Source: Desulfatibacillum sp.
GTDB taxonomy: Bacteria > Desulfobacterota > Desulfobacteria > Desulfobacterales > SpSt-501
NCBI GenBank assembly: GCA_020725555.1
Contig: DYEU01000004.1
Coordinates: forward strand, 124,001-188,000
DNA length: 64,000 nucleotides
Reading direction: 5' to 3'
Every line of letters begins with the position of its first letter. Position 1 is the first letter of the stretch. This document shows, piece after piece, positions 4,149-24,360 of this stretch. Both the position numbers and the translations under genes were made by a program. The notes under the pieces are model-generated. The model saw only the letters and a list, made by a program, of their open reading frames with translations, was not told the origin of the DNA and did not search any database.

Positions 4149-5678
4149 TCAGGCGAGCGGCCCGATCGTCTCCTCCACGGCGCGCAGGATCTCGCCGCCG
4201 CGCATCAGCCGCAGGACGGCGCCGATGTCGTCGGCGAGCACGCGGTCGGCCTCGAGGGGCGGGACCGCTGCGCGGATCACGCGGTAGGCGGCGCGCGTGC
4301 CCTCCCCGGCCTTCAGGTTGGTGAAGAGATCGAGCGCCTGGGCCGCGCAGAGCAGCTCGATCGCCACCACGTGCTCGGCGTGGTCCACGATTTCCCGGCA
4401 CTTGCGCGCGGCGATCGTCCCCATCGAGACGTGGTCCTCCTTGTTCGCCGAGGTGGGGATCGAGTCGACGCTGGCCGGGTGGGCGAGGACCTTGTTTTCG
4501 GACACCAGCGCGGCGGCGGTGTACTGGGCGATCATGAAGCCGGAGTTGAGCCCGCCGTCGCGCACGAGAAAGGCGGGCAGCCCGCTCAGCTGCGGGTTGA
4601 CGAGCCGCTCGATGCGGCGCTCGGAGATGTCGGCGAGCTCCGCGGCGGCGATCCCGAGAAAGTCGAGCGCCAGCGCGACCGGCTGCCCGTGGAAGTTGCC
4701 CCCGAGCAGGAACTCGGCGGTGTCGGCGAAGAGCAGGGGGTTGCCCGTCGCCGCGTTCATCTCGATCGCGAGCACCCGCCGCGCGTGGGCGATCGCGTCG
4801 CGGCTCGCCCCGTGAACCTGCGGCGAGCACCGCAGCGTGTAGGCGTCCTGGATGCGGGAGCAGTCCCGGTGCGAGGAGATGATCTCGCTGGCCCGGGTGA
4901 TGCGTTCCAGGTTCGCGGCCGAGGCGACCTGGCCGGGATGGGGCCGCACGGCGTGGATGCGGGGGTTGAATTCCATGCGGCTGCCCATGAGCACCTCGAG
5001 GCTCATGGCCGCGGCGAGATCGGTGAGACGCGCGAGCCGGCCGGCGTCGTGGACCGCGAGCGCCCCGATCGCGGTCATCACGGCGGTCCCGTTGACGAGG
5101 GCGAGCCCCTCGCCCGCCTCGAGCCGAAGCGGCGCAAGGCCGCGCGCGGCCAGGGCGGCCGCCCCCTCCAGGCGGCGGCCGTCGACCCAGGCCTCGCCGC
5201 GGCCGATGAGGACGAGGCCGAGATGGGCGAGCGGCGCGAGGTCGCCGCTTGCGCCGACGGAGCCTTTCTCGGGCACGACGGGGAGGATGCCGCGGTTGGC
5301 GAGCTCGGCCAGCCGCTCGACGGTCTCCAGGCGCACGCCCGCATGGCCGAGGGCGAACTCGCGCACGCGCAGGGCGATCACGGCGCGCAGGGTCTCCGCG
5401 TCGAGGGGGTCCCCCACGCCCGCGGCATGGCTCATGAGGATGTTCTCCTGGAGCTTCGCGGTCTCGGCGGGCGGAATGGCCACATCGCTGAGCGCCCCGA
5501 AGCCGGTCGTCATGCCGTAGATCCGCCGGCCCTCGCGCACCCAGCCCTCGACCAGGCCGCGGCTGGCGCGGATCCTCTCCGCCGCCTCCGGCGCGAGGGA
5601 AAGCCGCGCCTTGCCGCGCGCGAACGCGACCAGCTCTTCGATCGACAACTCCCCGCGGCCGACGATCAGCTCCTCCAT
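4149..5678 (-). CDS. hutH: Histidine ammonia-lyase
   Basis: MEELIVGRGELSIEEL...YGMTTGFGALSD...QENILMSHAAGVGDPL...GSVGASGDLAPLAH (MIO ASG motif). Confidence 0.92.
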   Translation of the reverse strand: MEELIVGRGELSIEELVAFARGKARLSLAPEAAERIRASRGLVEGWVREGRRIYGMTTGFGALSDVAIPPAETAKLQENILMSHAAGVGDPLDAETLRAVIALRVREFALGHAGVRLETVERLAELANRGILPVVPEKGSVGASGDLAPLAHLGLVLIGRGEAWVDGRRLEGAAALAARGLAPLRLEAGEGLALVNGTAVMTAIGALAVHDAGRLARLTDLAAAMSLEVLMGSRMEFNPRIHAVRPHPGQVASAANLERITRASEIISSHRDCSRIQDAYTLRCSPQVHGASRDAIAHARRVLAIEMNAATGNPLLFADTAEFLLGGNFHGQPVALALDFLGIAAAELADISERRIERLVNPQLSGLPAFLVRDGGLNSGFMIAQYTAAALVSENKVLAHPASVDSIPTSANKEDHVSMGTIAARKCREIVDHAEHVVAIELLCAAQALDLFTNLKAGEGTRAAYRVIRAAVPPLEADRVLADDIGAVLRLMRGGEILRAVEETIGPLA

Positions 5679-5773: not shown

Positions 5774-5795
5774 GCCGCTTCGCCCCAAAAAAAGA

Positions 5796-5824
5796 TTGCA
5801 ACTCTACATCTTGTGGGATAAAAT
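5796..5824 (+). promoter_or_regulatory. Predicted promoter TTGCAA-N17-TAAAAT
   Basis: Spacing 17; upstream of a small ORF with strong SD aaaggaggaagg. Confidence 0.55.
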
Positions 5825-5901
5825 GAATCTATATACAACCCTTGGGCGGGACACAGCGTTCTTCGGCACCGCCGAATTCAAACGCCAAAAGGAGGAAGGA
5901 C

Positions 5902-6030
5902 ATGCCGACTGCCAAGAAGACGACGGCCAAGAAAACCACCGCCAAAAAGCCAGCCGCCAAGAAAACCACCGCCAAAAAGCCGGCCGCCAAAAAACCAGCC
6001 GCCAAAAAGCCGGCCGCCAAGAAGAAGTAA
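5902..6030 (+). CDS. 42-aa histone H1-like Lys/Ala/Pro/Thr pentapeptide-repeat peptide
   Basis: MPTAKKTTAKKTTAKKPAAKKTTAKKPAAKKPAAKKPAAKKK; SD aaaggaggaagg upstream of ATG; own promoter and hairpin downstream. Confidence 0.8.
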   Translation: MPTAKKTTAKKTTAKKPAAKKTTAKKPAAKKPAAKKPAAKKK

Positions 6031-6067: not shown

Positions 6068-6104
6068 GAAGACCCGGCCCGCGCCACCTCGCGGTCGGGT
6101 CTTC
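6068..6104 (+). terminator. Intrinsic terminator-like hairpin after the repeat-peptide gene
   Basis: GAAGACCCG...CGGGTCTTC 9-bp stem followed by gctttc; U-tract is short. Confidence 0.55.
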
Positions 6105-6216: not shown

Positions 6217-8286
6217 ATGAACCCAGGCCTCACCAACCAGGAAATCGCCCAGGCGATGCGGGTCCACCTCGGGGCCCTCTTCGCCGCGCCGCCGCCGCTG
6301 CCGGACTTCGTCCCCGGCATCCGCCGCGCACCCGCCCGACCGGCGAACCTCAGCCGCGGGGACGTGGCGCTCGCCCTGCGAAACGCCCTGCGCTACGTGC
6401 CGGAAGCCTGGCACGAGGCGCTCGCCCCCGAGTTCTTGGATGAGCTCCTCACCCGCGGACGCATTTACGCCTACCGCTTCCGGCCGCCCGGGGCGATCCG
6501 CGGCCTACCCGTGGACGCCTACGAGGGCCGCTGCCTCGAGGGCCGCGCCTTCCAGGTCATGATCGACAACAACCTCGACTTCGACGTCGCCCTCTACCCC
6601 TACGAGCTCGTCACCTACGGGGAAACCGGCCAGGTCTGCCAGAACTGGATGCAGTATCGCCTGATCCGGCGCTACCTCGAGCTGCTCGGCCCGGAGCAAA
6701 CGCTTGTCGTCGCCTCGGGCCACCCGCTCGGCCTCTTCGCCTCCTGGCCCGAGGCCCCGCGCGTCATCCTCACCAACGCCCTGATGGTCGGCTGCTTCGA
6801 CACCCCGGAGCACGCGCAGCGGGCGATGGCGATCGGGGTCGCCAACTACGGGCAGATGACGGCGGGCGGCTGGATGTACATCGGCCCGCAGGGCATCGTC
6901 CACGGCACCTACAGCACGCTCCTCAACGCCGGCCGCGCCAAGCTCGGCATCCCGCCGGAAGACAACCTCGCCGGGCGCCTCTTCGTCTCCTCGGGCCTGG
7001 GGGGCATGAGCGGCGCCCAGGGCAAGGCGGCGGCCATCGCCGGCGGCGTGGCCGTCATCGCCGAGGTGGACCCCTCGCGCATCCGCACGCGCCTCGAGCA
7101 GGGCTGGGTGCACGAGGTCTGCGAGGACCCCGCCGAGGCCTTCCGCCGCGCGCGGGCCTTCCAGGATCGCGGGGAGGCGCGGGCGATCGCCTTTTTCGGC
7201 AATGTGGTCGATCTCCTCGAATGCGCCGTGCGCGAGGCCGTGGCGATCGATCTGCTCTCCGACCAGACCTCCTGCCACGCGGTCTACGAGGGGGGCTATT
7301 GCCCCCAGGGTCTGGGCTTCGAAGAGCGCACGGCGATGCTGCGCGAGGACCCCGCCGGCTTCCGCCGGCGCGTGGACGCCTCCCTGAGGCGCCACTTCGC
7401 CCTGATCCGCACCCTCGCCGACCGGGGGGCCTACTTCTTCGACTACGGCAACAGCTTTCTCAAGGCCGTCTACGACGCCGGCGTCCTTGAAGTCTGCCGC
7501 AACGGGCGCGACCCGCTCGAGGGCTTCGTCTTCCAGTCCTACGTGGAGGACATCATGGGGCCGCTGCTCTTCGATTACGGCTACGGCCCTTTCCGCTGGG
7601 TGTGCCTGAGCGGGAAGCCGGAGGACCTCGAAAAGACCGACCGCGCGGCGATGGACTGCATCGACCCCCGACGCCGCTTCCAGGACCGGGACAACTGGGT
7701 GTGGATCCGCGATGCGGCCCGCAACCGGCTCGTCGTGGGCACGCAGGCCCGCATTCTCTACCAGGACGCCGCGGGCCGCACGAACATCGCGCTGCGCTTC
7801 AACGCCATGGTGCGCGCCGGCGAGATCGGGCCGGTCATGCTCGGCCGCGACCACCACGACACCGGCGGCGCCGACTCGCCCTTCCGCGAAACGGCGAACA
7901 TCCGCGACGGCAGCAACGTGATGGCCGAGATGGCCACCCACGGCTTCGCCGGCAACGCCGCCCGCGGCATGAGCCTGGTGGCGTTGCACAACGGCGGCGG
8001 GGTCGGCATCGGCCGGGCGATCCACGGCGGCTTCGGCCTCGTCCTCGACGGCAGCGAACGCGTGGACGCGATCATCCGGCGGGCGATCCCCTGGGACGTG
8101 ATGGGCGGGGTCGCTCGCCGCGCCTGGGCGCGCAACGAGGCCGCGATCGCCACCTGCATCGACTGGCAGCGGCAGGCCGGCGTCACCGACGCGATCACCC
8201 TGCCCGTCCTCGCCGACGCCGAGCGCGTGGCTTCCTGGGTCGAGGAGGCGGTCGCCCGCCACGGACGAAAGGATCTCCTGCCATGA
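6217..8286 (+). CDS. hutU: Urocanate hydratase
   Basis: GQVCQNWMQYRLI, MTAGGWMYIGPQGIVHGTY, SSGLGGMSGAQGKA motifs. Confidence 0.93.
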   Translation: MNPGLTNQEIAQAMRVHLGALFAAPPPLPDFVPGIRRAPARPANLSRGDVALALRNALRYVPEAWHEALAPEFLDELLTRGRIYAYRFRPPGAIRGLPVDAYEGRCLEGRAFQVMIDNNLDFDVALYPYELVTYGETGQVCQNWMQYRLIRRYLELLGPEQTLVVASGHPLGLFASWPEAPRVILTNALMVGCFDTPEHAQRAMAIGVANYGQMTAGGWMYIGPQGIVHGTYSTLLNAGRAKLGIPPEDNLAGRLFVSSGLGGMSGAQGKAAAIAGGVAVIAEVDPSRIRTRLEQGWVHEVCEDPAEAFRRARAFQDRGEARAIAFFGNVVDLLECAVREAVAIDLLSDQTSCHAVYEGGYCPQGLGFEERTAMLREDPAGFRRRVDASLRRHFALIRTLADRGAYFFDYGNSFLKAVYDAGVLEVCRNGRDPLEGFVFQSYVEDIMGPLLFDYGYGPFRWVCLSGKPEDLEKTDRAAMDCIDPRRRFQDRDNWVWIRDAARNRLVVGTQARILYQDAAGRTNIALRFNAMVRAGEIGPVMLGRDHHDTGGADSPFRETANIRDGSNVMAEMATHGFAGNAARGMSLVALHNGGGVGIGRAIHGGFGLVLDGSERVDAIIRRAIPWDVMGGVARRAWARNEAAIATCIDWQRQAGVTDAITLPVLADAERVASWVEEAVARHGRKDLLP

Positions 8287-23173: not shown

Positions 23174-24211
23174 TCAGTGCAGGGCCTGATCCGAGCGGCC
23201 GGCCAGGGCCGGGTGCCGGTGGCCGGCGAGCCGGATCAGGGTTTCGGCCATCGCCGCGTGGGAGAGCCCCTCGGCCTCGGCCGCGCTCGCCATGCTCGCG
23301 TCCTCGCTGATGTCGGGGTTGGGGTTGACGTCGAGCACGTAGAAGACCCCGTCCCGCAGGCGCACGTCGAGGCGCCCGTAGTCCCGGCAGCCCACGGCCC
23401 GGTAGGCGGCGCGGCAGAGGCGCTCGAGCGTGTCGCGCTCGTCGTCGGCGAGCGGGGCGGGCAGGAGGGTGCGGATCGCTTCGTAGGCCGGCGAGCCGGG
23501 CGTGAACTTGGCGTCGTAGGTGCAGAGCCGCTCGCGGATGTCGTCCAGGGCGGCGAAATCCATCTCCGCCGGCGGCAGCATGCGGATCGTGCCGTTTCCC
23601 CAGAGGGAGACGTGGAACTCGCGGCCGTCGATGAATTCCTCGACGAGCGCCGGAATGCCCGCGCCGGCAAGCAGGGTTTCCACGCGCTCGCGGAGTTCGG
23701 CGGCGTCCATGACCACCGAATCCGAGGTCACCCAGTCGCTGCAGTGGCCGACGGCGGGTTTGACGATCGCCGGGAATCGCTCCCACTCTCCGGACGCGGG
23801 CGGGCGGTCAAAGAGCCGCCAGGGCGGCGTGGGGATGCCGCCTGCGGCGAGCAGCCGCTTGACGCGGTGTTTCTGGTAGCTCAGGGCGAGGGTTTCGGAC
23901 CCCGACCCGGTGAAGACGAAGCCCTTCTCCTCGAGGGCGCGCGCCACCATCCACTCGCTGTGCCGGATGCCGGGGATCCCCTCGCACCAGTTGAAGAACA
24001 GGCAGCTCTCCGGGTCGACGCCGGCGATGCGCTCGGCGAAAAAGCGGTCGACGACCGGGAGCATCTCGATGCGGTAGCCCTCCGCGGCAAGCCGCGCGAT
24101 GAGGCGTTCCTGGGCGTCGAGGACCTCGCCGCGCTCGGCCGGGGTCCAGGACGGGTCGAGATCGTAGAGCAGCAGGACCCGGAGGCACTTCAGGAGATGG
24201 TCAACGTTCAC
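23174..24211 (-). CDS. ATP-grasp protein, D-Ala-D-Ala-ligase-like
   Basis: NWCEGIPGIRHSEW...FTGSGSETLALSYQKHRVKRLLAAGGIPTP; VLDVNPNPDIS; GTG start. Confidence 0.78.
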   Translation of the reverse strand: MNVDHLLKCLRVLLLYDLDPSWTPAERGEVLDAQERLIARLAAEGYRIEMLPVVDRFFAERIAGVDPESCLFFNWCEGIPGIRHSEWMVARALEEKGFVFTGSGSETLALSYQKHRVKRLLAAGGIPTPPWRLFDRPPASGEWERFPAIVKPAVGHCSDWVTSDSVVMDAAELRERVETLLAGAGIPALVEEFIDGREFHVSLWGNGTIRMLPPAEMDFAALDDIRERLCTYDAKFTPGSPAYEAIRTLLPAPLADDERDTLERLCRAAYRAVGCRDYGRLDVRLRDGVFYVLDVNPNPDISEDASMASAAEAEGLSHAAMAETLIRLAGHRHPALAGRSDQALH

Positions 24212-24345: not shown

Positions 24346-24360
24346 ACCACATATGGTGGT
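24346..24360. promoter_or_regulatory. Inverted repeat ACCAC-atatg-GTGGT upstream of the -35
   Basis: 5-bp perfect arms, 14 nt upstream of the -35 hexamer. Confidence 0.35.

Follow-up and report, generated by a model that had tools for sequence, protein, structure and literature searches.

A 42-codon open reading frame (ORF) built almost entirely of lysine-rich repeats raises the question of whether a protein is made from it, and what such a protein would do between two genes of histidine utilisation. The window analysed here is a stretch of 64,000 nucleotides from Desulfatibacillum sp.; the assembly amounts to 3.6 Mb in 35 contigs, and the nearest relatives of this genome are labelled as Desulfobacterales or Deltaproteobacteria MAGs. 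The ORF lies on the + strand, from ATG at 5902 to TAA at 6030, as delineated by repeat scan, translation and comparison with orthologues. Its product, MPTAKKTTAKKTTAKKPAAKKTTAKKPAAKKPAAKKPAAKKK, is composed of K, A, P and T in TTAKK/PAAKK units (17 Lys), with no residue outside these units apart from the start. The 15-nt repeat period described in an earlier note on this DNA was recovered with the same coordinates and sequence, TRF resolving it into eight units of 15 bp each (score 98). The predicted peptide of 4.4 kDa has a pI of 11.2 and a charge of +16.5 at pH 7, and of the 231 ORFs in the window with 40 or more residues it is by far the richest in lysine, at 40% compared with 14.5% for the next. 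Single-sequence structure prediction returned a pTM of 0.16 and no secondary structure, a result that tells nothing about the fold.

Six of the genus's seven species (order Desulfobacterales), counting the window genome, carry the gene in stand-alone form. Those of G001 to G005 are 42–54 aa long, with 39–43% Lys and pI values of 10.7–11.3, and G005 holds two copies (G005a and G005b); no orthologue was seen in G006, whose assembly is 80% complete. The earlier note had made its case depend on small syntenic K/A/P ORFs in relatives, and these are indeed kept there, mostly at the same place beside hutH. On this comparative evidence, the ORF is judged to be a real gene conserved in one Desulfobacterales lineage and no chance repeat. 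In G004 (L069 3610-3774) and G005a (L068 3673-3825) the peptide has a central motif not present in the window copy, KCATKGKCATK, whose two cysteines may form a metal or redox site. G005b (L071 3700-3864) lies next to another hutH of the G005 assembly and lacks the conserved promoter; as the bin has 6% contamination, this second pair may be foreign.

Signals for expression surround the gene on the + strand. The promoter that the earlier note had proposed, TTGCAA (-35, 5796-5801) and TAAAAT (-10, 5819-5824) separated by 17 bp, was borne out by promoter scan and upstream alignment; it scores 9/12, and 0.1 promoter-like sites are expected in the shuffled region. In the orthologues G004 and G005a the -10 hexamer is TATAAT. 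An A-tract resembling an UP element (5787-5793) abuts the -35 hexamer upstream and is kept in orthologues with the same promoter, and a conserved ATACAA block (5833-5838) probably marks the region of transcription start. The strongest block of the upstream alignment combines the A-tract, TTGCA(A/T)CTCTANATNTTGTRGGNTATAAT and ATACAA, and is present in every copy except G005b, with deviations at three positions in G002. A GC-rich inverted repeat in the 5' UTR (GGGCGG...CCGCC, 5844-5873) is weakly indicated, its stem being kept in several orthologues with little covariation. The Shine-Dalgarno sequence AAAGGAGGAAGG, also claimed before, is present at 5888-5899 and kept in orthologues. The previously suggested terminator-like hairpin does have a long GC stem (6068-6104) and is a probable terminator; however, it is absent from the strict terminator scan because its T-run is weak (GCTTT). 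Strong 3' hairpins of differing sequence lie downstream of all seven copies of the peptide gene. An Rfam search of the window gave no match. Because promoter and Shine-Dalgarno sequence are kept in six copies and the 3' hairpin in 7/7, the peptide gene is considered its own transcription unit, as had been supposed.

Among known proteins, those nearest in character are the bacterial H1-like proteins. Against the Hc2 profile of Pfam (PF07382) the peptide gave an E-value of 5.7e-6 and 27 bits, short of the cut-off of 40; the scores against NCBIfam NF038052 (19.9, cut-off 135) and NF038053 (19.2, cut-off 80) also stayed below threshold. Chlamydial Hc2 (HctB) and its counterparts in Burkholderiales (for example BpH1) consist of lysine-rich pentamers with two positive residues, the rest being A/T/P/V, and the peptide shares with Hc2 these repeated pentamers, the variation in repeat number and the stand-alone H1-like nature (PMC2848022). 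Hc2 proteins, however, measure about 150–237 aa and include a non-repeat region, whereas the peptide and its orthologues have 42–54 aa and are repeat-like throughout. The C-terminal domains of AlgP and PhaF in Pseudomonas likewise have KPAA-type repeats, H1-tail composition and DNA binding (PMC9239181), the last of which is predicted for the peptide; in those larger proteins the KPAA tail follows an N-terminal domain, while the peptide has no other domain. ScvA of Coxiella is about 30 aa long and has no pentapeptide repeat. By description, it is very small, basic and stand-alone like the peptide, and it binds DNA (PMC4766238), as the peptide is predicted to do. Since the peptide is shorter than Hc2 and scores below its cut-offs, and lacks the additional domain of AlgP, it falls outside both, and is most aptly described as a lineage-specific, tail-only variant among the H1-like proteins of bacteria. 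Its mode of action is probably that of an H1, Hc2 or AlgP tail.

Profile searches of 173 genomes of the order and 394 of the phylum revealed no clear orthologue outside the genus; the matches there were weak only and mostly parts of larger frames, and a low-complexity profile of this kind is insensitive and may miss distant analogues. The promoter pattern was also tried as a locator in 390 genomes of the order, and outside the genus none of the matches at the loci inspected stands ahead of a K-rich ORF. PHROGs and PDB sequence searches with the peptide returned nothing useful, and no description of such a peptide in Desulfobacterota was found in the open-access literature. A stand-alone 64-aa peptide (MPVAKRKTTAKKK.../MPVAKRKTTAKKKPVAKKK...) is encoded in G034, from another family of the order (L013 1470-1664, minus strand), and a 34-aa ORF (MMATATKKKSTAKK...) in G679; both look like independent analogues. 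G014 (L026 1186-1800) encodes a 204-aa protein, AlgP-like in composition, in which non-repeat ends enclose long stretches of KKKAAAA/KKKVTKKK repeats.

Based on composition, similarity to the Hc2 profile and reports that KPAA-repeat peptides bind DNA in vitro (PMC9239181), the locus is interpreted as a lineage-specific gene for a minimal H1-tail-like polycation, probably strongly expressed, whose product would chiefly bind DNA; a probability of roughly 0.65 is assigned to this reading. Low-complexity likeness to Hc2/H1 can be a matter of composition only, and the sequence by itself does not discriminate between DNA, RNA and polyphosphate as the bound polymer. Another polyanion, be it polyphosphate granules, RNA or ribosomes, may accordingly be the main ligand: AlgP, with a comparably composed tail, is located at polyphosphate granules and sets their spacing (PMC9239181). 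Its extra N-terminal domain has no counterpart in the peptide, and this alternative, the chief functional competitor of the DNA reading, is considered unlikely. The shortness of the transcription unit, the inverted repeats at either end and the tandem 15-bp repeats might also fit a small RNA with a function of its own, or a minisatellite that is never translated; the ORF would then be incidental. The lysine codons argue strongly against this reading. Across three pairs (G000/G003, G005a/G004 and G005b/G001), 16 of 17 changed Lys codons differ synonymously and one non-synonymously, where a synonymous share of about 20–24% is expected for such changes without selection; G000 and G003 retain 17/17 lysines with A/P/T changes at ten positions. 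In addition, start codon and Shine-Dalgarno sequence are kept, and in the longer orthologues the amino-acid composition persists while the repeats degenerate. Because the Lys codons change almost only synonymously and the G000/G003 lysines are all kept, the peptide is taken to be translated and selected for its lysines, and an incidental ORF or passive minisatellite is very improbable.

It could also be proposed that the peptide serves the adjacent enzymes of histidine utilisation, for instance as a partner of HutH. The location between hutH and hutU given in the earlier note was confirmed by neighbourhood comparison: hutH (histidine ammonia-lyase, 4149-5678, minus strand) is divergent, with its start near 5678, and hutU (urocanase, 6217-8286, + strand) follows downstream in the window genome. 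The peptide gene stands divergent beside hutH in six of its seven copies and in three different flanking contexts, namely a hut cluster (window, G003), DctM/DctP-transporter genes (G002, G004, G005a) and a third one (G005b), and HutH is 72–95% identical among these six copies. G001, where the third context is partly kept, retains the peptide gene, but hutH is absent from that spot and the only HutH seen in the vicinity, some 6 kb away, is a remote paralogue with about 46% identity. In a species-level genome collection a K-rich ORF lies nearby at 5 of 80 HutH loci, all five in the genus, and at none of the other 75; these counts are a lower bound, some of the 80 contigs being short. The linkage to hutH is thus genuine though lineage-specific, and HutH function is generally independent of the peptide. 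Because G001 keeps the gene without hutH at that spot, membership of the hut pathway is unlikely; the gene also has its own promoter and hairpin, and a dedicated role for the peptide with the hut enzymes is hardly credible.

The promoter spacer, which is the best-conserved DNA here, suggests how such a putative DNA-binding peptide might be regulated. It contains an element resembling an NrdR box, ACTCTACATCTTGTGG (5801-5816, + strand), with the core CWANATNTWG in six of the seven copies; the invariant columns of the spacer read C-T-A-N-A-T-N-T-W-G, and its two variable core positions coincide with the N positions of that pattern. In 2005, Rodionov and Gelfand reportedly described the NrdR box consensus as ACACWATATATWGTGT, the core of which matches the spacer pattern. 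Scored against this consensus, the peptide promoters reach 11–13 of 16 and the nrdJ promoters 13–15. In the genus, the nrdJ promoters carry ACACAATATGTTGTGT and variants whose first base has the same position in the -35 hexamer as that of the peptide-promoter box, and nrdJ of the window genome has a weaker partner box about 31 bp upstream. The mean score of the peptide promoters exceeded that of nearly all column permutations (P 1e-5), a value that is optimistic because the NrdR idea was picked after the sequence had been seen. With zero mismatches, a relaxed pattern found only the peptide-promoter site and nrdJ in the genome, a search that is not independent because the pattern had been relaxed post hoc to take in both sites. 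At two mismatches, hits were at background level apart from these two, and matches of 12/16 to the consensus occur about twice per 64 kb. The other 12/16 match in the window is an intergenic palindrome, ACCACATATGGTGGT, at 24346-24360, preceded by TTGCAAC and located upstream of a minus-strand gene that is ATP-grasp-like (23174-24211).

The gene nrdR is present above the cut-off in 7/7 genus genomes; that of the window genome has no comparable box. NrdR sites usually comprise two boxes 15–16 (or 24–27) bp apart, and binding depends on such pairs (PMC12051234). Inspection of the upstream alignment revealed no conserved second box 14–17 or 24–27 bp away, and the link to NrdR is only suggestive because of this. 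Control via a single NrdR box has been reported for topA of Pseudomonas aeruginosa, a DNA-topology gene that the peptide gene would resemble in this respect (PMC4409342). Evidence for the topA box comes from its mutation and from an nrdR mutant (PMC4409342), whereas the box of the peptide gene is a candidate predicted from sequence. The spacer may instead be the operator of another regulator or merely an optimised core promoter, which concerns control and not peptide function. The single box, the imperfect outer arm (the left arm reads ACT for ACA), and the conservation of -35, -10 and ATACAA block, which may mean that the whole is kept simply as a promoter, make this a probable explanation. 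Nevertheless, the invariant columns coincide with the core of the NrdR box and the variable ones with its N positions, with the same geometry as in nrdJ, so NrdR control of the peptide promoter, exerted at a single box in the spacer that separates -35 and -10, is put forward tentatively.

Taken as a DNA-binding polycation, the peptide would be produced from its own strong promoter, stay disordered and bind polyanions non-specifically, most likely the chromosome. It may neutralise phosphate charge and help HU-family proteins, which are found in 7/7 genus genomes, to compact or bridge DNA. Under NrdR control, peptide supply might tentatively track dNTP synthesis and replication. The gene of the tail-only H1-like peptide would then belong to the NrdR regulon, and a DNA-packaging polycation would be made in parallel with deoxynucleotides, as a bacterial analogue of histone supply coupled to replication; this extension is rather unlikely. 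Lysine repeats of the H1-like type have been known in bacteria mainly as tails or as proteins of 150–240 aa, and a conserved tail-only peptide of 42–54 aa offers a natural minimal test of how such a tail acts by itself. Should the NrdR box prove genuine, nucleoid packaging would be tied to a dNTP-sensing repressor.
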